Source: Euperipatoides rowelli (taxonomy: Eukaryota > Onychophora > Udeonychophora > Euonychophora > Peripatopsidae). From it: DNA of 22,045 nt. The translations under genes and the position numbers were made by a program. Shown one piece after another: positions 1,486 to 21,905 of the stretch (position 1 is its first letter; every line of letters starts with the position of its first letter). The stretch lies in the NCBI GenBank assembly GCA_003024985.2, contig PXIH01S0005400.1; one strand, 5' to 3'. The notes beneath the pieces were generated by a model. That model was given only the letters and a program-made list of their open reading frames with translations. It ran no database searches and was not told the DNA's origin.

Positions 1486-2299
1486 GTAAATTGTTAAATA
1501 ATAATAAAAATTCAGTCCATGTTCTTAAGAAGTTAGAATTGTGATTGTTATAAACTAACGGGCAAGAATATCCTTTTACATATTACCTATAAAAAGAAAC
1601 TTGACCAAGCAAAATAATGAGNAAACCTTAAAGTATATATATGACATGGACAGATGTTCAAAATAATGATATTGGCTCATAAAAAGATCCACACATGTAT
1701 ACAAAGTGTTAGTAATACTACATACAGGGATGAGCAAAATATTAAAAAAAAAAAAAACAATGAACCACATGCAGAAAATACTCCCCGAAAAAAAAGTGTA
1801 TTGACGTACAAAATATAAACTACATTAAAGCATCTAAAACACAAAATACTCTTATATTTCCAATCTTCTCAAAATACAAATACTTTTTAGGCTACATAAT
1901 TAACCCTCTTTACTGAACATTAAAGTTCTGTGAGAAAATTACATCACAACAAAATGTGAAGATTAAAAAAAGAAGTAAAAATCTTTAAGCAATAATGGAT
2001 TGTCTAACAATAGCAAAGCAAACCAAATAAAGTAGTCAGACAGTGCAGAGACAGTATCCCAAGACAATGTTGTGGTTAAAGTTTGAGGCTGGGGATCTGG
2101 AAATTTTATATCAAATATAAAAGGTTACCATAGCCCAATTTAATTGTTAGAGTGCTGTTTTAGGGACTATTTCTTGGAAAAATGAACTGTGATCTTTCTA
2201 ATGATAAATCATGAGAAACGATACATATAATGTACAGTATAAACCCAACTATTTTTCATTCATGAAAAGTCTAGGAAGCTATTTAAGAAGATTGAATTA

Positions 2300-2324
2300 T
2301 AGCTTATTATTCCATAATAAGCTA
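2300..2324. repeat. Perfect hairpin, 11-bp arms
   Basis: TAGCTTATTAT, a 3-base spacer tcc, then ATAATAAGCTA. The arms are perfect reverse complements. No gene lies next to it, so a terminator or regulatory role is not supported. Confidence 0.85.
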
Positions 2325-2342
2325 ATAATCCCCCCTCCCTGA

Positions 2343-3055
2343 CCAATCAATAGAGATAGTGGGGAGTTAAAGCTTATTTATACTTTTTACGGAACAGGTC
2401 TTCCATTCGTTTTAATCCCTATCATAAACGTTGATGTGTATATAAAGTTGTTCCTAGTTTTCTAATTGGTTGGGTCCATAATCAATCAAATTTCTCTATA
2501 CAACAGCCAATCATATTATGCGTCTTATTTCCAGCAGTTGTTAAGGTTTTAGTTTCAAGTATCAAAACAAATTCCAATAAATGTCTAGTATTGCGTAAAA
2601 TATTTAGTTTTATTTTATTTAGGCTTACTGCTTTACGGAAATTCATTTTCAAATACGCTGTTTTCAAACTAAATCAATTAGGACAAAAATAAAAGTGTGC
2701 TGCCCTCTACTTAGGAAACCTAAGAAATGATTGGTTCAATGGCCAGTAAGATGGAGAGAAAACGGATAGGAATGCGTAAAAGTTGATTTTTTTTTTTTCA
2801 ATAATTCTGGGTGACGGACGAATAATTGTGATACCTGTATGCAGCATTGTGCAAGTTCTTTATGGATAGCATTATGTCTAAATGAGCTTTTAGGAGGGCA
2901 TGGGCTTAGCAGGAAAAAAAAAACGAAATATTCTTAATTTATTTGCATATGAAACAATTATTTTTTCAACTTTTATCAAAAATTATCACTATAAATAATT
3001 TTATTTTCTGTGTTTTTGTCTGTTTGATATGATGACACCCCAAATTAACCAATCA
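2343..3055. promoter_or_regulatory. Cluster of CCAATCA motifs
   Basis: Four exact CCAATCA heptamers occur within about 710 bp: 2343-2349, 2507-2513 and 3049-3055 on plus, and 2728-2734 on minus. CCAAT followed by CA or GA is the preferred NF-Y site in animals. No TATA element, initiator or first exon was recognised nearby, so this is a motif cluster only and not a demonstrated promoter. Confidence 0.2.
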
Positions 3056-6000
3056 AACTTTGTCTTTCACAGAAGAAATGAAGTATGTATAGAAATATTC
3101 AGCACAAATTCAAAAAGTATTTTTTTTTTTTTTTTTTTGAGGATACAAATAATGCAAAACATAGAATTGTATCTAAAGTGAACACTATTTTGGGATAGCT
3201 GACTAGTAATTAACACATTAATATCATTGTGCTATTCCAGCAATGTCTTTTAATGCTTCCTGGAATTAAATATTTATCAGGTGTTTTAATACGTCCCTCA
3301 TTTTTGATGAGCTTTTAACACTAGTCTATATAAAAAAATACTAAAAGACAATGTGCAACATAAATTTTGTTGCTAAGCAACAGGATAAACACAGCTGATA
3401 CGACTAACATTTTGTTATTATTAAATTAACATTGAATGCATTAAACCCTAACAAAACAAAAATGCAAAAAAACAATAGTGGGAAATAATAAAATAAAATC
3501 CAAAAGTGGGGAGGCGACAATAAATAAGGCAAAAGGTAAATAGTGGTTGGAATTTACAGATCTTTTAGGTCGGTGGAAGTTGTGATGGCAGCAGCTAGTT
3601 ATTATTATTTACACTAATAATAATACAACACTACAATAATATATTAACAAAAGTAAATGTTAAGAATGACTAAAAAGCTTATTATATAGCAGATGGTTTA
3701 TACATCTTAAAATATCTAAATCTAATAATAAACTGTAATACTAATGAAGTCATGAAATAGTCATGCAAATTGCTGCAAACTTAGCTAAGACACATGATTC
3801 TAATTCAGACATAATCTAAAGAATTAAAACTTGATTAAAAGAAAAAAAGTACCTGAGTAATTTCCTTCAATGACGACGAGAAAACAAAATACAAAATTCA
3901 ATCAATTTCTTGAAAGATAGGGCAAACATAACGACAAATGGATTTCTCTCATATGTCCTAGGAGACACAGTAGACACACAAGCAAACTATCCAAACATAT
4001 ACATAGAATGTGGATATGGTCAATATTCTATATAGTACTTCAATAAGCTAGAAAAATCATGTGTAATGTGTACAAAGTCTCCCAAGACATCGAAAGATAA
4101 ATTAAGACATAAAGATTTAAATTAGACAGGATTTAAAAATCATTAAAGCTAAAAAGCCAATCTAGTAATTAAATAACTTGTTACAAATTAGACTTTGTTT
4201 TTTTAATATTAATGAACTAGCTTCACCATTAGAAGGGCTTTAAAAATGGTGACATACAGGAGAGGGCCAAATATAGGGAAGAAAGGTGGGTGAATTCAAA
4301 AATTGTTCCTGAATATTTCTTCTAGGGATGAAAATAATGATTTTTTCAAGCATTATGAAAATTTTAATTAAATACCCTGGAACTGATGCTATTACAAATA
4401 ATTTTATTAGCGATAACAATTTGTCACTCTCCCTTACCCTATGATCAGATTTCTGTAATCCTGTCATCACACTTACAGTATGTAAACACACATCACCATT
4501 TCATTGCAAAAAAAAAATTATGTCTACATGCTCTTCCTGCGTCATCAAAAAAATCAATCAATCATTCCATTTCCGGTCATCAAATCATTAAACAGCTTTT
4601 TTATAGTATTTCCCAAATAATAGGCCCAGATAGCCAAAAAATTGAGAAGGATGGGTGAGTAAATCATGTCATACTTTTCCTTATATTAAAAAAGCACATT
4701 CTAATAAGATTTTTAAATATTGACTTCGCCCATGGCTACGACAACACTTTTTGAACCAGGTCTTTCAGAGAGTTAATTGTTCTTCAATTCTGACGACATT
4801 AATAGCTAATGGCATATTAACTTAAAATAGATCTTAACTCAAAAATGCATACCTTAGAGCCGTCTGATAAAGATATGGCATATTTAAATAATAAAAAAAG
4901 TAATAAATTTAATGTCAATAGAATAACATTCATTTCAAGGAGCTGTCTCATTGACAAATATTAGATTTGACATATAGCAGCATGTTAGACCTCTGTGAAT
5001 TAAATATAGAAATACAATTTAAATATGAACCAGATAATATAAAAAAGTTAAGCCATTTTACTAGACACTTAGATTTAAAAATGCAATGAATATCTTAAAT
5101 GCAGCTTGAAAGAGAATTTCCATTTATGAATATTGATTGATATTGAAGAATAAAATACTTCAAAGCTTGGATTTAAAAAATATGAATTATTATGAAAGAT
5201 GTAATTCATCAAATAAAATTGGTTCAAAGACGACAAACTAAATATAAAAATTATAATGGTATAATAAAAGACAAATAAGTTTTAAATAAAACATGTAGGA
5301 CTTTTTCACATACACAAAAAGAAAATACCGGTACAGTAATTGATATGGTCTGGTGTATAATTTTTCGTTTTGTTTATATTATTTAAGGAATATTTAATAA
5401 AAAAAAACATCACCACCTAGCCTTGATGGCAAAATTTACAAAGTATTAAATAATAGGTATAATATTCATCTGCTATTGAACTGTTGGACTAAAATATATT
5501 TTTTTTTCTTATAAGAAAAATATCTAGTCTATGAAAAAAAAAAAAGTATTGAAATAAAATATGTAATAATAATAGACTTATTACACAAAATTTGTGTATA
5601 AAAATCTTTAGGCCTACTAGAATTTTAAATGAAAAATTAAATATAACAGAAAAATTAAACAATTTTAAATTTTTAATAAAAAATAAATCAATTCCAAACA
5701 CCAATACACATTTACAGCACATGGAATAAACTATCATTAAAAAAAAAATAGAATGAAAGACCCAATTATAAAATTAGTGAGTTTATCCTATGCTTTGCCA
5801 AATGTCTCAATGGCCTGTTTGTCCCAGGTAAATATTGAAACTGAGAAAAAATTTATTTATCCAGTGGTATTTTCAAAAAAATTAAATGGCAATATTTACA
5901 ATTTTTGTAAAATTTTAAACATTTCTAATTCAAGATTCTATCTTAAGCTCCATCCTGTTGACTATTTTTACAAATGTTAATGAATAATACCCACATTAGT

Positions 6001-8067: not shown

Positions 8068-10098
8068 AATAAAAATTCATGATGAAATAACAAAAATCTA
8101 ATAATTGCGCTATTATTTAACATTTAATAATAAATTTGACAATTTTTTTTTTATCTTTAATTATCAATTTTGAGCTGAAACAATTTTTTTCAGCTTAGAA
8201 TTTATATAGAAATAGAAAATAAATAAATAATAGAAATAGAAAACATTTAGAAAATATTAGGCTAAATAACTAAAATTTCACCATCCCCATTACAGCCATC
8301 AAAAAGCCAATAATTTTTTTGTTAGTTTTCCTGATGCCTCTCGGAAGCAAAGATTAAAAAAATAATTATCTTGTTAAATTTCAATTTTAATTGTAAAAAT
8401 ATTTGTAGAACTATAAATATTATCTGGTAATCTTTATCTAGGTCTCATTTGAAAGTTAAATAACATAGGTCCCAAATTCACTTAAATTTTTTATATAAAT
8501 AGGAAGGAATGAGGGGGGGGGGGGGTTAACAGATGTTGATTTTTGTATTTTAGGGTAAATACGAACACTCGTTTGGGTTTATACAAATGAAAGGGCTTTC
8601 ATTGGTGATAAAGTGCAAAGAAAATAAGTTTTCCTCATGACAAACTATCTGGAAGACAAGTGCTAAGTAACAGCTTCAGATTGAAAGAACAGCAGAAGCC
8701 GTAAAACTAGTGTAGACAGCCACTCAAGAAAAATCTAAGACTAATAGCATGGTCATTTGCATGGCTCATGTATAGTTGAATATTAATGGTTAATAGATTG
8801 GTGTGCTACAATTCTCCTTACTGATCTTAGTGCGGAAATTTATTTCCATACAAGAAAAGGATTTCTAAGGATGAGACGCAAAGCATTTGCATAATTTGAT
8901 ATCACTTTGCTGTAAAATCTCATGTAAAATGTAACAAAGTTTCTCAAGTACGAGCGATTGGAAATTTCATTTCTACCATCTATTTAATCCCTCTCTGATG
9001 TAAATACTGAACTATGAAAAGTACGATAGAGAAAATATACGCTCAACATTTTCAAAGGGCTATATGTGAAGATTTTGTGACAGAAATTTGCCAAGCCAAA
9101 TCTCCACATATCCTCTGACTTGAGTAACAACACTCAATGTTTTGTGTAGTAGTGGATTTGTGTCTATTTCTTGTTTGGTTTTTGGAGAATAAAAATATTT
9201 GCAGTTAGTTTCTCCTCTTAACACTTTTCACTCGAAGCGCGAGTGAAAATCGTTATTGTCTTTTCCTCTAAAACACGATAACGAACGAGACTCATTATAT
9301 TTTTAACATTTATTGTTTTTCTTAAAACTAGTTGTGTTTGTAGCTTACATTTTCTCATAGCCTGATAATTGCCATCTTCATTTTACTACTAGATGTCATT
9401 TTTAAATTCACAGGAGTAATTAATTAATAACACATTACTACAGCTATTCTTTTAAATTTAATATTTTTGACAATGTCTACTAAACAAAATCAGAGAAGCT
9501 GAAATTTTAAGAAGCTACCCTAATTTTGAAATTCAGTTTCAGAACTTATTAAAATGTTTCTAATAAAGAAACAAATAAGTTTTTTCCTTCACGTAGTAGC
9601 GTATACTCTATAGTAATTTCTTCTGATAACTTTCTTCTAGTTATAACATGCCAAATTCTGATTAGGAAATTGACAGGCCTTCAAATGAAAATTATAATAT
9701 ATGTTCGGAATGATTTTAGTTGTATTATTTTGAAAATTATTATTTTCTTTTTATAATCTGTATATTCAGTATATATGTGTGTGTTGAGTTTTATCACATT
9801 AAAACAAACTAAAATCAATGACATTCCAGTCACACACACATTTAGGCTACATGTAAGAAATTAAAAACAAATGAAGGTGGAGGAGGTTTAGATTAATTAG
9901 CATTTGAGATTTGATTAATTAGATTAAAGTGAATTATTTTTTCAATTTAATAATATTTGACATCATCATCGTCATAATGTTAATGCTTGACTTTGGAATT
10001 TTCTCATAAATTTGTATGTATTGATAAAATTATTTTTATTTAAGGTATTAGCCAATCTATCATACTAAATAAAAACAATCTGAATTTATTTATTCCTA
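8068..10098. other. AT-rich sequence without a recognised gene
   Basis: About 2 kb with no supported coding sequence. It includes a run of 13 G at 8513-8525, a hairpin at 9225-9249 and a short TG/CA-rich patch near 9770-9840. No exon of endophilin-B was recognised here on the minus strand. Confidence 0.5.
9225..9249. repeat. Perfect hairpin, 10-bp arms
   Basis: TTTTCACTCG, spacer aagcg, CGAGTGAAAA. It is GC-richer than its surroundings. A second inverted pair, TCGTTAT and ATAACGA, follows within about 40 bp. The function is unknown. Confidence 0.85.
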
Positions 10099-10965
10099 TA
10101 GGGGAAATAGGGGGAATGCCATGCACTTAAGCAAGATTCGTTCGTGCGGCAAAATAGTTAAAGTTAAGATAAATATTTTTACATGAAAATGATCCTTAGT
10201 TATCCTACTTTTAAATGTATATAAACATTTCGTGCAAAAATANNNNNNNNNNNNNNNNNNNNNNNNNNNNNNNNNNNNNNNNNNNNNNNNNNNNNNNNNN
10301 NNNNNNNNNNNNNNNNNNNNNNNNNNNNNNNNNNNNNNNNNNNNNNNNNNNNNNNNNNNNNNNNNNNNNNNNNNNNNNNNNNNNNNNNNNNNNNNNNNNN
10401 NNNNNNNNNNNNNNNNNNNNNNNNNNNNNNNNNNNNNNNNNNNNNNNNNNNNNNNNNNNNNNNNNNNNNNNNNNNNNNNNNNNNNNNNNNNNNNNNNNNN
10501 NNNNNNNNNNNNNNNNNNNNNNNNNNNNNNNNNNNNNNNNNNNNNNNNNNNNNNNNNNNNNNNNNNNNNNNNNNNNNNNNNNNNNNNNNNNNNNNNNNNN
10601 NNNNNNNNNNNNNNNNNNNNNNNNNNNNNNNNNNNNNNNNNNNNNNNNNNNNNNNNNNNNNNNNNNNNNNNNNNNNNNNNNNNNNNNNNNNNNNNNNNNN
10701 NNNNNNNNNNNNNNNNNNNNNNNNNNNNNNNNNNNNNNNNNNNNNNNNNNNNNNNNNNNNNNNNNNNNNNNNNNNNNNNNNNNNNNNNNNNNNNNNNNNN
10801 NNNNNNNNNNNNNNNNNNNNNNNNNNNNNNNNNNNNNNNNNNNNNNNGTACATATTGCAACCAGAAAAGGACAGTATTAGATAAATTCATTAATTATATC
10901 ACGTAATATGAAAAACTTTGATGCGTGGTATTACCCGCTGCATGGTATTCCCCCCACTTCCCCTA
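10099..10965. mobile_element. TIR-bounded element containing the assembly gap
   Basis: The two sides of the N-run carry matching inverted ends. The left end at 10099-10125 begins TAGGGGAAATAGGGGG, and the right end at 10939-10965, read on the minus strand, begins TAGGGGAAGTGGGGGG. They match at 24 of 27 positions and then diverge. This is the layout of a small DNA transposon or MITE about 0.87 kb long if the gap size is real. A target-site duplication is unclear: a TA outside GGGGAA at both ends is possible, and longer duplications do not fit. Most of the interior is N, so no transposase can be assessed. The superfamily is not assigned. Confidence 0.6.
10243..10847. other. Assembly gap (605 N)
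   Basis: Unsequenced run. Open frames reported across it are artefacts. It could hide the interior of the TIR-bounded element and, less likely, the next endophilin-B exon. Confidence 1.
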
Positions 10966-11421
10966 AATAATTGAACGATTTTTTGAAAAAAGGTCCAAAA
11001 TGCTCAGAGTATTGTGGGAGAAACTTAGAAAATGTCCTACTGTTGAAAGTATTAAAATTAAAATGTAGAATTTTTAGAACATAAAACATAATCCATTTTA
11101 GAAAATTGAGATACTTTTTCTATTTTATTTTATAATTTTTTGTTTTAAATTTATAGTGTATTACCTTATTCAATAGAGATCTCTTTGCCCCAGAAAAATA
11201 GCACAAGGTGTTAGTTATTTTAAATGGATACTTTACTACATTTAAATCAATTAATTACAAAAACTTTAGTGTGTTCAAGAACGTAGAAATCTATTAGGTG
11301 GAAGTGAAAGCCTAAATAATAACAATAAAAACTAATAAGAAGCAAGAAACAGAAGGGAAAAACTCTTAAGATATGACTGAAATAAATTTAAAAAATACAA
11401 AATATTGCATTCCATACTAAC

Positions 11422-11469
11422 CTTTTCGATCAATTCCTTGGAAATGCACGAGGAAAAGAATGAAAAAGA
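11422..11469 (-). CDS. Possible small cassette exon of endophilin-B
   Basis: Candidate 48-bp exon, not confirmed. On the minus strand a pyrimidine-rich stretch ends in ttgttcacag and is followed by 16 open codons (SFSFFSSCISKELIEK) and a gttagt donor, in phase 0 at both ends, so it would not disturb the frame set by the exon at 13162. A second acceptor (catttccaag) would reduce it to a 15-bp microexon, ELIEK, spanning 11436-11422. In that case the pyrimidines encoding SFSFFSS would be the polypyrimidine tract. Vertebrate SH3GLB1 has alternative inserts at the equivalent place. Short splice-flanked frames also arise by chance in such AT-rich DNA, so confidence is low. Confidence 0.28.
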
Positions 11470-12708
11470 CTGTGAACAATAAATAAGACAAAGCATAATA
11501 TAGTGTTCTAATGATACACTAGAGGGCAGGTTGACTGAGGAAAAAAAAAAAAGAGGGATTCTAAAACTTTTAAGCTTCACAAGGGTATGGATGGTTTGAA
11601 TATTAATTTTAAGATTTTAAATGAAAGATGTAGTGAGAAAAGAAAAGTCACAAATAAGTATTCAAATACAGAAGGAATATTGAATTAAGCAATGAATTAA
11701 AGATGACATTCAAGTTAGTATAAATTAACATTTCTAATAAAGAAATTTATCTTACATCAAACTAGGACTTATTTTTCCTTTTATACTATAAAAGAGAATA
11801 ATCAATTCTACAATGCTACTAATATTTAAAAAAAAATTAAGCTAGAAACATATACAGTAGCCTATATTTGCCAAATATATAAATGTAAAGAGACTTAATT
11901 GTCAAGAAAAATATTGTTTAGCGCTACCAGGATGCGTGGGAGAGAAGATGCCAGGAAATAGGGGGGGGGGAGCAATGATTACAATAAGGCATTATCGAAC
12001 AAATAAATATCTTCAAATAATCAGAGAACAATAATATTGACTAACAAGTAAAAATGTTAAAGGTGCCCAATACAACGATGTAATTCACACATTTTCTTCA
12101 AACTAGCGACTAACGACCTCTAATGATACTAACTACAATTATTCAGTTCTGTATACTTGCACAACAATCTAGTTCATAATAAGGTAAACTTGTGACAACT
12201 ATCAGAACTTGCTAACGTACAGTGCATAAAATACTCATTATGATCCCAGTGCTGACCAGTTAATCACAAAAAAAAAGGTACAGACTTAGTCACCTCATCT
12301 ACACAATTGTATAACTTCCTTAGAATTCTGACGATAATTAAGAGTTACCTGTCACACAAAAAAAATGCACACATATAAAGTTTAAATTACCCTGAAGTTT
12401 CTAGAGTGACGTCTTGAGATCACCCATCCCCTTCCCTTTTTTTATTGCTGATTATCGCGATATTTTATTTAGATTACATAGTTGTCTCAAATTAGTTAAT
12501 CTAGCTTATATGCTATTACTATCAACATTTAATCAATACTTTGCAATGTTGAGATGGTAAGGTATATAAGATCTTAACAATAAATGAATAAAAATAAAAA
12601 ATATATTTGATTTGATTATAAGAAATAATTTAACAATTTGAGAAACCTAATATCACTAATGTTTACAGCAGTCTCAAAGTAATCTTGATCAAAATTACAT
12701 TAACCCTC

Positions 12709-12735
12709 TAGTTGTGATTGATTAAATCACAACTA
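12709..12735. repeat. Perfect hairpin, 11-bp arms
   Basis: TAGTTGTGATT, loop gatta, AATCACAACTA. It lies close to a second hairpin at 12769-12794 (TGTGGAGT and ACTCCACA) and to TA microsatellites. Together they make a small cluster of inverted repeats inside the probable intron. Confidence 0.85.
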
Positions 12736-12792
12736 CAAGATCAAATATGAATGGAACATTTTTCCATTTGTGGAGTAGAGTTTGAAACTCCA

Positions 12793-12840
12793 CATATATA
12801 TATATATGTAACAAATAATATATATATATATATATATATG
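12793..12840. repeat. TA/AT microsatellite
   Basis: Two runs of alternating TA separated by gtaacaaa. Simple repeat. Confidence 0.95.
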
Positions 12841-13161
12841 TACAGTATATAGAATTGTAAACTAACACAGTGAAGCGCTTATTTTGTTTAATTACAAATT
12901 CTTCTTTAATGTTGTTTGAGTTATAGAATTGACACTAGTTTTAATTTTCTCTCAATGAAAGCCATTATAAATTCTGAAAAGAAGCATTCTAAAGCCAGTG
13001 ATTCAGATTATTATTATTAGCCAGGGATAGACAAGCATAATAGGGAATGAAGCATAGTTAGATGAAAGGAAATCGTAAAAGAAGCATCACCATGCTGTAT
13101 GTTTACAACAAAAAAAGAAAGAAAAAAATAGAATGATAGAGAGNAGCCTTACTATGCTTAC

Positions 13162-13254
13162 ATTAGCCTGGGCGTCCTGGGACCGGGCTTTGCGCAGCCG
13201 ACTCTTGCAGGCATCTAAATCTAGACGTTTGGTTGCCAAAATCTTTCTTTCTTT
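13162..13254 (-). CDS. SH3GLB1: Endophilin-B exon (BAR-domain helix, following exon)
   Basis: Next coding exon of the same gene, 93 bp or 31 codons, phase 0 at both ends. The acceptor is tttttatag|AAAGAA and the donor AAT|gtaagc. It encodes KERKILATKRLDLDACK and then SRLRKARSQDAQAN, directly continuing KTIM from the exon at 15949. The vertebrate counterpart reads KTIAKERKLLQNKRLDLDAAK. The basic, helical residues belong to the long BAR-domain helix that forms the curved, membrane-facing dimer. Local GC content is clearly higher than in the surrounding intron. The variable QDAQAN end falls where vertebrate SH3GLB1 accepts alternatively spliced inserts, so splice variation after this exon is plausible. 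The conserved next segment (ELRITQSEFDRQ-like in vertebrates) was not found at lower coordinates; it may be in the assembly gap or beyond position 1. Confidence 0.92.
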
Positions 13255-13581
13255 CTATAAAAATTAAAATATTATTAGTAAAGTATTTATTAAACTTTTA
13301 TGAAGTACTTCTTACATACAATTTTTTTCTAAATTGTGGTTTTCACCTCCCAAGTGACCAATGAACGTGTCATCCACCATTAGTTTATTTTTCATTTTGA
13401 TAAAAACAAGCAATTCAAATATTACATTTAGAAAAACCATTCTGATGATACAAATTATAGTTCTGAATTTTAGGGCAAGAAAGCTTAGGGCAGGGATAAG
13501 ATGGCCATTTTTTCCCCATACGCTGATAAAAGGTTTGACAGTATTGGAACATCTTCAGACGCTAAAAAAACTGCACTAAAA

Positions 13582-15180
13582 TATTAAAGGTCACACAAAA
13601 TGAATTTTTTTAAAAAAAAAAAATTATGATTTCATTTCCAAGAAAATCACTAAAAAAGTAATTCCACTTGGTTTAAAAAAAATAAGAGTTATTTAAAAAT
13701 CAAATTTATAAGTTAAACTTTAAGTTCCTCCCCTTTTGAACGCTAGTGCTAAAAGTATCCTGTAGGTAGAGTTGTTTGTAAGAATTTGATGGCATCATCA
13801 GGAGTAAATCAATGAGATGCTGTAAATTAATTCTTTACAATATGTTATGGAGATGAGTGGTATTTTATAAGTAATATAATAGCACAATAAAACATTCTAT
13901 AATAAATTTGGTCTTATATGTCTAAATAATTTTTTTAATACTCTACATCTCCAATAAAGATTTTACATTTTAATTTTAATGTTAAAAAAATGGGGAGTGT
14001 TAAGCTTTGGCTTTCGCCTAATATAGTGAACCTACAACAGCAGCAGCACGGTAGCGTAAAGATTTTATGATTAAAAGAAAAAGTAAATTATTAAAATTTA
14101 CGATCATATGAACTGCAGAATTTCATTTTTATTAACGCTTTTTAGTTTAATTATCGATTTACGAAACTATTTGGCTACTATGGCTGAAACTAATTACAAT
14201 TCAGAGTTGTTGTTTTTTTAAATTATGTCTTAAGTGGTCTATCATAGCTTTTTTTTATTATTGCCATAAAAACTATTAATTTTCTGACAAACACAGGCCA
14301 GTCGAATCCTATTATTATTGTATTACTAAAAAATGTGTGTCTTTGTTAAAACAGGGTTAGTGTCTATTTGATTTCATGTTGCATTGTTTAATTTTATTGT
14401 TAATAATAATAATATCGGTAGACTCAACGGAAATGGAGATTGCATAAGGCAGGCCTGGGATGAATAGCATACGATAGGTGGCCTTCTCTACAGTAAGATA
14501 CTATCAATAAGAACTTGTATTTCATGATTTTTCTAGCTTTTTATTACTGTAGATAAATTGTGAGGACATCGACACATACACAATTACGTTATGAGAATAT
14601 TTGGCGATTTATTAAATAATATTGTTATATTCGCCGTATACAAATAATTTTTACTTTTAATACCTCAATTTTTTTAAAGCTTCATACCGATATTCTTTAT
14701 TTTTAAATGTTTAATTAATTTATACATGATTGTATAAAAAAAACAGTCTGTGGGCATGTATCATCCATAATTACGGCCCCATCAGATGATGATAATTGGT
14801 ACTATCTACCCCTGCCAAGGGGTCAAATTGGTAAAGAATTATTACTCTTGGAATTGTATAATTAAAATATCTACACCATCCATAATGAGTTAAATTTTTT
14901 AGTCTAGTTATAAAAAATAAATGGAAAGAATTGATTTGAACGATACGTTGCTAACATGGATTGTTTCTATGCTTTGAAAGATACTGTAACTCATATAGCT
15001 TGGTAATGCTTACTCCTGATGACATCACAAAATACTCTCGGACCCAAAGAATCATTTTTATCACCTCTGACCTATGCAGAAATGTTTATTAAATTTCCAT
15101 TTTAAAGGAATTTTTTTTTTTTAGTAACTTACTTTAAAATGAAATCATTAAAAAAAATCCATTTTGTGTGACCTTTAATA
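13582..15180. mobile_element. 1.6 kb non-autonomous TIR element in the endophilin-B intron
   Basis: The ends are inverted copies. The left end contains TTAAAGGTCACACAAAATG from 13584, and the minus-strand reading of the right end begins identically at 15178. The likeness extends inward: T-run, ATGATTTCATTT, AGTAA/ACTAAAAAA blocks, then CATCATCAGGAGTAA (about 13793-13807) against TCATCAGGAGTAA near 15010-15022. Each arm is therefore about 175-230 bp with many substitutions and indels. Outside each end lies TTAA, itself within TATTAA and TTAATA. This fits either a TTAA duplication (piggyBac or Kolobok habit) or a TA duplication (Tc1/mariner habit). No transposase frame is visible, so this is a MITE-like derivative, or an old decayed copy. 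It leaves both exons and their splice sites intact. Confidence 0.7.
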
Positions 15181-17630: not shown

Positions 17631-17633
17631 TAA
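17631..17633. repeat. Target-site duplication TAA (left)
   Basis: TAA abuts the first base of the left TIR. The matching copy is at 21310-21312. In the LINE frame (minus strand) the triplet is TTA, Leu. Confidence 0.75.
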
Positions 17634-17941
17634 TAGTCCAGTCAAATTAGACTTTTTAGGGGAGGGGGGGAATTAGCAACAAGCTGATTTTTTGCAGAAA
17701 CCTTCCTCTCACCATTTTATTTAACATACTAAAAGTCCCCACTGATCGGATGTGTGCTTTGGACGCCATATTGTAAAATGGCGACCATAAATAGGTTTTT
17801 GCATTTTTAGAGGAAATGATAGTCTGCACGACAAAATTACCATATATAATTGTAGAGAATAAAATTCTCTACAAAAAAGATTTACATTTTGTGGCTAGGA
17901 CATAGCGTTTAGCCTCAAAAAAACAGAGAAGTTGTAATTTG
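17634..17941 (+). repeat. Left terminal inverted repeat (about 308 bp)
   Basis: Paired with 21004-21309. Shared blocks in order: AGTCAAATTAGA, TTTAGGGG, AATTAGCAACAA, CACCATTTTATTTAA, ATACTAAAAGT, GTGTGCTTT, GCCATATTG, GCATTTTTAGAGGAAATG, GCACGACAAAATTAC, TTGTAGAGAAT, TGGCTAGGACATAGCG and TTTAGCC. It contains a perfect hairpin (17850-17874) and a CGCCAT/ATGGCG pair near 17764-17783. Confidence 0.9.
17850..17874. repeat. Perfect hairpin within the left TIR
   Basis: TTGTAGAGAAT, spacer AAA, ATTCTCTACAA, with 11-bp arms. The right TIR keeps a degraded version (near 21076-21100) in which the inner arm reads GTAAAGAAT. A subterminal hairpin could be a transposase-binding or strand-processing site; that is inference. 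Confidence 0.9.
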
Positions 17942-18203
17942 TATTCAAATTCTCTTTATTGTTAAGAAACAAAGTTCTTGTACAGAGTGATTAAAAACAT
18001 AAATAAATAGTATACAAAACAAAAAAAAAAGAGAGTTTATAAAATTCTACTATAAAAAATACATTAATAGTAACAAATTATATTAACTTTTCCAAAAGAA
18101 AAAAAAAGAATAACAAAAATAAATAGAGCAAAATAGAACATCAAATGAATGGTCTAAAAATACAAAAAGTGAATACTAATCATCATTAAAAACATTAACA
18201 GCA

Positions 18204-18879
18204 TCATTTTTTATTCAATATCTAAATTATTTTTTATAAACTTAAAAATATTTTTTTTTATGGTTTCTAAAAGAACCAGCAAATAATTTTATTTTTAATT
18301 TATTCCACAACTTCAAACATCTGATGTAAATTGAGCTTCTGGTCAGAATCCGTTAGCTGCCCAACACTATTTTGTGGAAGAATATTAAATCTGTTGAACA
18401 AACTACACATCACATACTAAAAGACAAAACGTCTTTTAGCACACGATCTGGCATAGTTTATTCACCAGATCTAATATCCCTCCACAAATNTNCAGTGAGA
18501 TACAGGGAAATTTCAACCTACTGATAAAATTCTGAGAAGATCGATTTTTCCCGTAAAACAATATAGTGGCTAACATATCAACTACCAATTTATCAATGAA
18601 AAAAATATTGTGTTTTTATGACTTTAATATTAAAACAATGCATAAAAATCGAAATTAGCCGTATAAATTAAAATATTATGTATATTTGATACAACTTATT
18701 CTAAAAGATATTTATCATTTTAAATTGTTTAAAATTAATAAACTATATGATTTTAATTTTTCTAAATAAATAAATAACAAAATATAACCAAAATTATACC
18801 AGTTGCGCCACCAAACGACTAGATTTTAAAATATAGTTTTCGTCGTAATTAAAATGTGTCATTTTTTATTCAATATCTA
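18204..18879. repeat. Direct repeat pair, 21 bp
   Basis: A 21-bp sequence containing TTTTTTATTCAATATCTA occurs identically at 18204-18224 and 18859-18879, 655 bp apart, inside the 3.68 kb element. It may mark an internal duplication or the flanks of an old insertion. Confidence 0.75.
18417..18439. repeat. Perfect hairpin, 9-bp arms
   Basis: CTAAAAGAC, spacer aaaac, GTCTTTTAG. It lies about 75 bp inside the left end of the possible nested element. Confidence 0.8.
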
Positions 18880-18890
18880 TTTTTTTTTTA

Positions 18891-19150
18891 AGATACCCAA
18901 ACTTCACCACTACCCTGAACCCTAACTCCTACTATATGTAAAATACACTAAATATCCAACCCTATGATAATCAAATGAGGAATACACTTCTGTATAAAAT
19001 TTGACGTTCATTATTGAATGTGTTTTTTTTTTTTTTTTTAGATAACCAACCTTTTTACCACTATCCTAACCCTACTACATATAAAATATACTAATTATCC
19101 AACACTATGATAATCAAATGAGAAATACACTTCTACGTGAAATACAAATA
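18891..19150. repeat. Tandem duplication, period about 149 bp
   Basis: The segment starting AGATACCCAAACTTCACCACTA at 18891 recurs from 19040 as AGATAACCAACC...ACCACTATCC. Both then share CCTAAC, TATAAAATAxACTAA, TATCCAAC, CTATGATAATCAAATGAG and AATACACTTCT. Each copy is preceded by a long T-run (18880-18889 and about 19023-19039). The copies differ by roughly 15-20 percent. Confidence 0.85.
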
Positions 19151-19672
19151 TATATTTATTCAGTTTTAATAAAATAAAAAAAAATAACTCCATCTTTCAC
19201 CGGCATTCCGTAACACACAACATCATAATATTTCTCAAAGTACATTGTTTACTTGTAAGTAAAATAATAATAATAGTTTTAAATTTTAAATTACATCCAT
19301 TCATAAACTTCACATAAATTAGAAATAAACTTTAATGACATAAATTAAGCCATTATGACAGTAAAATCAATAATAAAAAAATAGTCTGTCAAATTAAATA
19401 ACAAATAAATGCAAATTATTTTTTAAAATTATTTAAATATATAATGTAATATGTTTAAAAATACTTAACATTAATAAACTAAGAAATAACTGAAAAAAAT
19501 GAAAAAAATAAATAACGGATTCTGACAAGCTACTTTTTCTATTTGTTTTATAATGATTAATAAATACAAGGTACCAAATTTTTTGAATTTCCAAAAATTA
19601 TTTTCTTCTTTGTAAATTTGTTAGCAATATTGTTATAATAATTATAGATTTATAATAACTAGGCCTCCAGTG

Positions 19673-19692
19673 TTGGTCGAAATTTCGACCAA
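19673..19692. repeat. Perfect 20-bp palindrome
   Basis: TTGGTCGAAATTTCGACCAA is its own reverse complement. Immediately downstream a 19-20 bp direct repeat, TCCTTTGTAAAAGTCGCCA then TCCTTTGTAAAAAGCCGCCA (about 19701-19740), follows in tandem. The patch is GC-richer than its surroundings. Confidence 0.9.
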
Positions 19693-19974
19693 TAAGAAAT
19701 TCCTTTGTAAAAGTCGCCACTCCTTTGTAAAAAGCCGCCATAACGCTAAAAAATGAATGTTTTAAATTTTATCTATAAATTTTATCTATTGCACTCCCTC
19801 TCCATACAAACTTTAACTCTCCCAAATATCACGCTCCCCCGTGCGCCCAATATGCTTAAAAAGGTATCCAAAGTTTTCCCTTCACGTATTAATATATAGA
19901 TAAACCAAATTATATTTAATTTTTTTGTGATGGAGATAGGGTGTTTAATAATTTTATCCTATTGTCATATGACA

Positions 19975-20490
19975 TCATGAAAACCGTCTATTTGTTTGGT
20001 CAAGACTTTTAATAGTTGTTTTTTTTTTAAAAAGGTGAAATATATATTTCATATAAGATTTTGAAAGTTTCTTTATATATTTGAAGTTATTTTTAATAAT
20101 TCTAAATTTTATTTTGATATTTTTAGACATTGGCTTGTTGAAAAAAAGTGAGTTTGCCAAATATTATTCCTAAATCAGAATGATTATGCCCTTTTAAATT
20201 TCTAAATTATTTATTTTATAGATTGATTGAAATATTATGCTCGGTCCAAAAGATATATTAACAGTTTGTCGATATTTACACTTAAGTCATTTATATTTAG
20301 CCAATTAATTAGCATGTTTAGATTATTTTGAAGAGTATCACAATCATTTAAGGAATTAATCCTATTATAAAGTTTTATGTCATCTGCGTAAATAATACAT
20401 TTAGAATCATCAAATATAGGAAAATCAATAAAATAAAGATTGGATGCTGCAACTCTTTGCCTCAATACCCACTCACATTATAATATTTCA
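19975..20490 (-). mobile_element. Fragment of a second, different LINE (RT region)
   Basis: Decayed non-LTR retrotransposon piece inside the 3.68 kb element. The minus-strand frame at 20465-20235 reads NLYFIDFPIFDDSKCIIYADD, then IKLYNRINSLNDCDTLQNNL and NINDLSVNIDK, matching the motif B-C-D region of jockey/CR1-like reverse transcriptases (usually LYINDLP ... YADDTKLY ... L..W......LN.DK). Upstream, a frameshifted stretch matches the expected GVPQGS-type block poorly. Downstream, the frame at 20160-19975 and its neighbour give DLGIIFGKLTFF and KNIKIKFRIIKNNFKYIK, corresponding to the usual DLGI.FD..L.F...I...KA...LGFI.RN block. The residues around YADD differ clearly from those of the host LINE, so it is another family. 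It has no complete ORF. Confidence 0.85.
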
Positions 20491-21003
20491 CATTAATATG
20501 TTAACCAAAAGTGTATATATTAAAAAAAAACTAGCAGACAATTATTAATTTTTTAGGTGGGGAAATGTTTCAAATAAAAGAGTGAATTTCTCAGTAAATA
20601 AAGTAGACTTAATTAGGAAAAAAATTGTATACTTCTAATAGTTTTATTAATAAATCATTTTAATTCTGATAGTTTTCTGAAATTGAATAATAATTAGTTA
20701 CTATTAAGTTTTAATTATTATACTGTTTGTTCAAATAAAGTTGAAAATTAAATGAATGTATGAGTATAAGAATTAGACTAAATATTACAAAAGTTTTATA
20801 TATTATACAGAATCAATTTTCAAGTCTAATTTTAATTATCTCACCCCCCCCCCTCTACTTTCCCACACACTTTGATTTATTGTAAAAACAATTCTGAGTA
20901 CATGTAAACAAACTATTTACATTCTAAATACATTCTTGTTTAACATATTAAAGTGAAAAAAATTACCGCAGAAGTATGGATAGTGTGGGTATTGATGCAT
21001 CAG

Positions 21004-21309
21004 ACAAATTATAACTTCACTGTTTTTTGCGGCTAAACGCTATGTCCTAGCCATAAAGTGATAGTAATATTTTATGTAAAGAATTTAATTCTCTACAATT
21101 TTTGTCTATTGTAATTTTGTCGTGCGGATTACCATTTCCTCTAAAAATGCAAATAAAAAACAATTTACGGTCACCATTTTCCAATATGGCGGCTAAAGCA
21201 CACACCAAATCGGTGGGAACTTTTAGTATATTAAATAAAATGGTGACAGGCAACATTGTTGCTAATTTTTTCCCCTAAACGTCCAAAAATTATCTAATTT
21301 GACTGACTA
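21004..21309 (-). repeat. Right terminal inverted repeat (about 306 bp)
   Basis: Reverse-complement partner of 17634-17941, ending at the last base before the right TAA. It differs by several small indels, including a poly-G stretch present only in the left copy and a longer AATTTTTGGACGTTTAGGGG segment here. The frame at 21256-21047 (minus) is translated TIR and not a gene. Confidence 0.9.
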
Positions 21310-21312
21310 TAA
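21310..21312. repeat. Target-site duplication TAA (right)
   Basis: Second copy of the TAA flanking the 3.68 kb element. LINE sequence resumes at 21313. Confidence 0.75.
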
Positions 21313-21877
21313 GTACACCGGTGAGATTCCAGATTGTTCCAACACATATGGTAGTTCATTCATATAAAGGCTGAACAAAAGTGGACTTATTACATCACCT
21401 TGAATAACCCCTTTCTATCAACTCTTATGGATTCAGATATTTTTTAATTCGATAATATTGAAACATTTGCTACAGAATAATAAGTATTTAAAAAAGTTAT
21501 CAATTTGTTTGAAACACCAGACTTGGACATTATAGACCATAACATTGAGTGATTTATAGTATCAAATGCTTTTGAAATGTCAATGAAGAATGTATACAAC
21601 TTACCTCTTTTCTTCACTTTATATAAATGTATCAAAGCGTTAAGGGTAAATAAATTAGCCATCGTTGAATATCTTGACCTAAAACCGGCCAGAGATTCAT
21701 GAATTAACTGTTGATTATCACACCAATTCTTTAATCTAACATATAATATATAGGTCAACACTTTAAGAAGAGGAGATAACATACCTATCGGTAGATAATT
21801 GGAAGGATCATCCACAGGTCCCTTTTTATAAATTGGGGGATTATTATTGCCTTTGCTAGTTTCTCTGGTATATATGC
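21313..21877 (-). pseudogene. LINE reverse transcriptase, fingers and palm remnant
   Basis: Minus-strand blocks in order: IYKKGPVDDPSNYLPIGMLS (RT motif 1, usually NYRPIS), LAGFRSRYSTMANLF (motif 2), FFIDISKAFDTINHSML (motif A with its catalytic Asp), then, after a stop near 21444 and a frame change, GVIQGDVISPLLFSLYMNEL (motif B). A C-run at about 21825-21829 causes another frameshift from EKLAKAIII to PPIYKKG. The longest intact frame is 21815-21444. The last codons before the insertion read SPVYL, which continues into GETEIH at 17630. All core motifs are recognisable, but the frame is broken at least three times. Confidence 0.9.
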
Positions 21878-21905
21878 TTCATTATACATTTTATTATAAA
21901 CTTAT
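21313..21905 (-). mobile_element. LINE, 5' half of the visible RT region
   Basis: Upstream half of the LINE interrupted by the TIR element. The visible homology begins near 21905 (VYNKMYNEAYIPEKLAKA, the usual N.....G.IP..W..A. region before the RT) and ends at the right TAA. Sequence from 21906 to the window end shows no endonuclease domain, so this copy may be 5' truncated there or broken again beyond. Confidence 0.8.

Follow-up and report, generated by a model that had tools for sequence, protein, structure and literature searches.

A 22,045-nucleotide stretch of the onychophoran genome of Euperipatoides rowelli (GenBank assembly GCA_003024985.2, contig PXIH01S0005400.1), which we call the window, contains what looks like a large transposon with terminal inverted repeats (TIRs) lying within the reverse transcriptase (RT) of a long interspersed nuclear element (LINE). 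How large is this element, what did it duplicate on insertion, and to which group does it belong? A previous reading of the sequence alone (the sequence-only reading) saw a single 3.68-kb element and, from the TAA on either side, placed it in a TWA-duplicating, PIF/Harbinger-like group. Here, we describe the comparison of this element, named element A, with other copies in the genome. The apparent 3.7-kb element is a ~1.2-kb element that has received 2.5 kb of later insertions. We are confident that broken or non-coding elements are nested here at four levels, assembled in the order LINE 1, element A, LINE 2 and element X, and that element A is a non-autonomous TIR transposon. Biologically this is ordinary nested transposon debris, unusually readable to the base.

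The ends of element A and the empty site

The left end of element A, at 17634, reads TAGTCCAGTCAAATTAGAC and is preceded by TAA; the right end, at 21309, reads TAGTCAGTCAAATTAGAT inward and is followed outward by TAA. The TIRs are ~300 bp long and agree at 254 of 290 aligned columns (88% identity), and unlinked copies in the genome have the same exact inverted ends. The boundaries given by the sequence-only reading therefore stand.

The host element, LINE 1, is recognized by its RT domain: Pfam RVT_1 matches 21447-21878 on the minus strand (E=3.2e-12), and the top phmmer match of the upstream part is an R2 retrotransposon protein (9nl3_A, E=1.9e-5). One of the two minus-strand frames adjoining element A ends in SPVYL and the other starts with LGETEIHFLSYADD. 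Removal of 17634-21312, i.e. the element and one TAA, restores the RT frame as SPVYL-GETEIHFLSYADD. Since a genome search with the upstream half of LINE 1 reported no relative at the DNA level, the genome was searched with the joined protein, and paralogs exist at the protein level. This search gave 148 matches, best candidates only, of which the seven best outside the window (L057-L063) were fetched; all span the join. SPVYL|GETEIHF is gapless in all seven, with no extra sequence and no residue lost or gained (three, L058, L060 and L061, are gapped elsewhere); L057, for example, reads ISPIYLDKTPIHGLSYADD where the window reads ISPVYLGETEIHFLSYADD.

Because these paralogs are gapless at the join, and because five extra bases stay behind and the RT frame is lost if TA is taken as the duplicated target, the target site duplication in the window is TAA, 3 bp long, and element A is younger than the LINE 1 in which it sits. 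On the insertion into a LINE RT, the exact empty site, the 3-bp duplication and the relative ages, the paralogs bear out what had been read from the window. An empty site in a coding frame has the advantage that it sets the length of the duplication independently of the repeat itself.

Size and coding capacity of element A

The window was searched against a 100.9-Mb draft assembly of 4,324 contigs, in which it lies on contig C1222. Separate queries with each TIR and with the interior returned differing sets of copies, and the counts of family A copies from these searches are lower bounds. Nineteen family loci were fetched, and the junction of 17944 with 20441 was compared in 11 of them (L014-L019 and L023-L027), the other eight being left out. 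In all 11 copies, 17944 runs directly into 20441, typically reading AATTTGTA-TGGATGCT, where the window has ~2,496 extra bases. As every one of them is continuous at this point, we conclude that element A measures ~1,180 bp and that 17945-20440 was inserted later. In the window the two parts amount to 311 + 869 = 1,180 bp, with one border T counted on both sides; complete copies elsewhere measure 1,234 bp (L018), 1,242 bp (L015), 1,247 bp (L017) and 1,302 bp (L014). The single 3.68-kb unit of the sequence-only reading has thus to be given up, although its outer ends were right.

Element A has no coding capacity: the longest stop-free stretch in the five copies checked is 114 codons, and the window copy has no open reading frame (ORF) of 100 amino acids. 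No autonomous partner turned up in the TIR searches, the genome not having been searched for the IS5-like DDE transposase family. Its inverted repeats, a duplication defined by the empty site and the lack of an encoded transposase mark element A as non-autonomous and as a member of the TIR (class II) elements.

The insertions within element A

The inserted sequence, LINE 2, lies on the minus strand, starting at ~20440 with an RT piece, CIIYADDIKLYNRINSL, and ending at ~17945 with TTAACAATAAAGAGAATTTGAA. The RT piece has a DNA relative on contig C1073 that is 67% identical, and a similar 3' end is found at three other loci (L085-L087), whose sequences diverge past that end. Because an RT piece is present and the 3' end recurs at three loci that then diverge, we identify 17945-20440 as a 5'-truncated LINE, with a shared 3' end, a truncated 5' end and an RT remnant.

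As the 2.5-kb insert is bordered by A and T and shows no clear duplication, a Helitron was also considered. Helitrons end in CTRR, and no such end was seen here; the internal RT piece and the LINE 3' end at 17945 seen at three loci also rule this candidate out.

LINE 2 in turn contains element X, a second inverted-repeat element. Seven other copies of element X were seen with both ends, and three of these (L033, L035 and L036) are flanked by perfect 8-bp duplications, while L041 and L043 match at 7/8 duplication bases. Members of the element X family are L033-L044, L050 and L051; in the window copy, ~20 bases close to the right end have been lost. A high-copy repeat of ~250 bp also lies within LINE 2; its identity to the copies at the six loci compared (L045-L049 and L052) is 88-92%. 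L049 has two copies of this repeat head to tail, ~241 bp apart.

Both LINEs resemble LINE retrotransposons in their RT remnants (RVT_1 in LINE 1, YADD in LINE 2), and LINE 2 also in its 5' truncation and shared 3' end; they differ from intact members in that both are broken, and they are described here without clade assignment. The features are collected in Table 1.

Table 1. Coordinates of the nested elements in the window
Feature	Position	Strand	Evidence
Host LINE 1, downstream part, frame-broken, (L)GETEIHFLSYADDIVLFADS..., includes one copy of the duplicated codon	17470..17633	-	translation, paralogs
TAA, left copy of the target site duplication	17631..17633		sequence, empty site, end table
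Element A, left part with left inverted repeat (~300 bp)	17634..17944		copy mapping, TIR alignment
LINE 2, later 5'-truncated insertion in element A, 3' end at ~17945	17945..20440	-	empty site in 11/11 copies, shared 3' end, RT piece
Element X, second inverted-repeat element (end GGTCAGAATCCGTTA) in LINE 2	18341..19526		copies, 8-bp duplications
High-copy repeat, ~250 bp, within LINE 2	19648..19904		genome copies
LINE 2 RT piece (CIIYADDIKLYNRINSLND...) with YADD	20237..20438	-	by eye and C1073 relative
Element A, right part with right inverted repeat	20441..21309		copy mapping, TIR alignment
TAA, right copy of the target site duplication	21310..21312		sequence, empty site, end table
Host LINE 1, upstream RT part, frame-broken, ends ...SPVY(L) at the insertion	21313..21878	-	Pfam RVT_1, phmmer, translation

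Proposed history of the nest

In the history that we propose, LINE 1 was resident first, and element A, ~1.2 kb long, inserted into its RT and duplicated TAA, the step that the empty site shows. As it has TIRs, a duplication and no long reading frame, element A presumably moved by cut-and-paste, with a transposase supplied in trans. The 5'-truncated LINE 2 then entered element A on the minus strand at 17944/20441, with no duplication beyond one T; this insertion presumably took place by target-primed reverse transcription, the duplication having been lost. Element X and, earlier or later, the 250-bp repeat came to lie in LINE 2.

Target site and classification of family A

The proposal of a single 3.68-kb TIR element that belongs to the PIF/Harbinger group and targets TWA (TAA or TTA) draws on the TAA on both sides of the window copy, and a 3-bp duplication is indeed what element A and that group have in common. 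It makes a prediction for the other copies, and we therefore read the 3-mers beside 21 family A ends, a set that includes both ends of the window copy and several ends of diverged copies. Six of these ends adjoin TAA or TTA and the remaining 15 adjoin another 3-mer. Outside the window, TAA or TTA occurs at 4/19 ends against a background of 7.8%, a slight excess (p = 0.056) that speaks for the proposal; yet if all insertions had been into TWA, the probability of four or fewer such ends would be ~9e-7 at 10% per-base divergence and ~1e-4 at 15%. Two of the five complete copies have a perfect 3-bp duplication, and while that of the window is TAA/TAA, that of L018 is CTT/CTT. Plant PIF/Harbinger elements of Medicago are described, in PMC2213677, as having TTA/TAA duplications and TIRs of 14-25 bp with G(N)5GTT, a description that may not bind animal elements; measured against it, the TIR of element A, at ~300 bp, is long, starts with TAGTCC (TAGTCCAGTC) and is without G(N)5GTT. 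Neither was a transposase seen, and the interior 17945-20440 that a single unit would include is missing from every copy compared. We therefore regard the 3.68-kb PIF/Harbinger element as highly improbable. A 3-bp duplication in the window and in L018 is well supported, a fixed TWA target for family A is not, and the same ends occur elsewhere beside other 3-mers, an outcome that the sequence-only reading had itself named as refuting. The PIF/Harbinger assignment is accordingly not supported, and element A was probably wrongly classified. A Tc1/mariner-type element, which would duplicate TA and have ends starting at the G after that TA, with TAA matching by chance, could point to the TA that precedes this G at both ends in four of the five complete copies (the window, L014, L015 and L018, but not L017, which has AA at its right end). 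The five bases that its empty site leaves behind would break the RT frame, whereas none of the seven paralogs has an extra residue; short of a private 5-bp insertion at precisely this place in LINE 1 before element A arrived, this excludes such an element, and we judge it very unlikely.

The nesting might also be only apparent, if unrelated sequences had been misjoined in assembly. The assembly is a draft in many contigs; 10243-10847 of the window is a run of N, and two single N lie within element X. The junctions, on the other hand, coincide with independently defined ends, i.e. the TIR ends of element A with their duplication, the 3' end of a LINE and the TIRs of element X, which makes an artefact extremely improbable. 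Some observations do weigh against the nest of a non-autonomous transposon and later insertions that we prefer. No transposase was seen in the family A copies from the long-TIR and interior searches, and perfect 3-bp duplications are confined to two of the five complete copies: L017 (CTT/CTA) and L014 (CAG/AAG) are each off by one of three bases, and L015 (ACA/TAG) is a mismatch. The borders of LINE 2 share at most one base (T) where a duplication is usual, so that one has to assume that LINE 2 integrated atypically or that a small deletion occurred. The flanks of element X in the window, GAGCTTCT and AAGCTACT, agree at only 6/8 bases, and the flanks of two of its seven other copies with both ends (L034 and L042) are unclear.

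The mismatch at L015 was followed up in the high-copy repeat in which this copy lies. A search with this repeat gave 40 scored matches, L015 itself among them, and 20 copies were fetched and compared, together with L031. At the insertion site these mostly read ...GACTAGTGTGCCAC..., with five additional bases in L075 and a few missing in L077. On its left side L015 has ...AACTAG and seven more bases, and on its right side TAGGGTGCCAC. This would fit either a duplication of TAG with seven bases of filler or an earlier insertion private to this copy.

In L015 (~2095-3336), element A lies within the high-copy repeat, which starts with CAGGGATGGCGAACC, and in L031 (795-1553) a copy of the same repeat is enclosed by two pieces of element A. 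As each is thus found within the other, the periods of activity of the two families may have overlapped.

Among known systems, element A is most simply compared with non-autonomous TIR transposons and large miniature inverted-repeat transposable elements (MITEs), with which it shares inverted ends, a short duplication, the lack of a transposase and diverged copies in the genome; it differs from these in general by its long TIRs (~300 bp or more) and its size of ~1.2 kb. Duplication lengths are given as 3 bp for Zator and 3-4 bp for AcademX in PMC10045372, and on that account element A, with a 3-bp duplication that has no evident fixed sequence (TAA in the window, CTT in L018, imperfect in three of the five complete copies), resembles both. 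No transposase of either is linked to family A, and we would call membership in Zator or AcademX possible. The comparison of copies shows how misleading a single copy can be, both on the size of an element and on its superfamily. Should more copies bear out a 3-bp duplication without fixed sequence, family A would make a useful entry in a repeat library for this genome.

A distant family with similar ends

A search with the 18-base end, allowing one N and up to two mismatches, gave 36 matches, including family A, against 21 for a reversed control, and many of the weak matches are therefore due to chance. From these 36, four candidate relatives (L053-L056) were fetched, two of which, L055 and L056, are cut off by contig ends. 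L053-L055 form a separate family, while L056 matches at the end only. The members of this family start with TAGTCCAGTCANATTAG, identical to element A at 17/17 bases in L055 and at 16/17 in L053 and L054. At their right ends, L053 and the C3464 member differ from the shared end, and no clear flanking duplication was seen in these two. The C3464 member (L054 with L064, G000:C3464 ~9443-13655) has ~4.2 kb between its inverted ends, within which a broken ORF occurs twice, in inverted copies.

The ORF of L053 has eight database relatives, seven of which are hypothetical proteins of Araneus ventricosus; two of these seven are listed as Tesmin/TSO1-like CXC domain proteins. When pieces of it were scanned, there was no Pfam match at the curated cut-off. 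By eye, the spacing of its acidic residues looks XPG/FEN1-like; AcademX carries an XPG nuclease. The product of the L053-L055 family, which would be an undescribed CXC-containing, perhaps XPG-like protein, might conceivably have mobilized family A, whose characters are long TIRs, TAGTCCAGTCAAATTAG ends and a 3-bp duplication without fixed sequence. We think this unlikely, though worth stating: if true, it would reveal a poorly known or undescribed transposon lineage.

Other features of the window

An Rfam scan of the window at gathering scores gave no match. Degenerate tandem arrays with a 21-bp unit lie at 1-137 and 663-1289 of the window.

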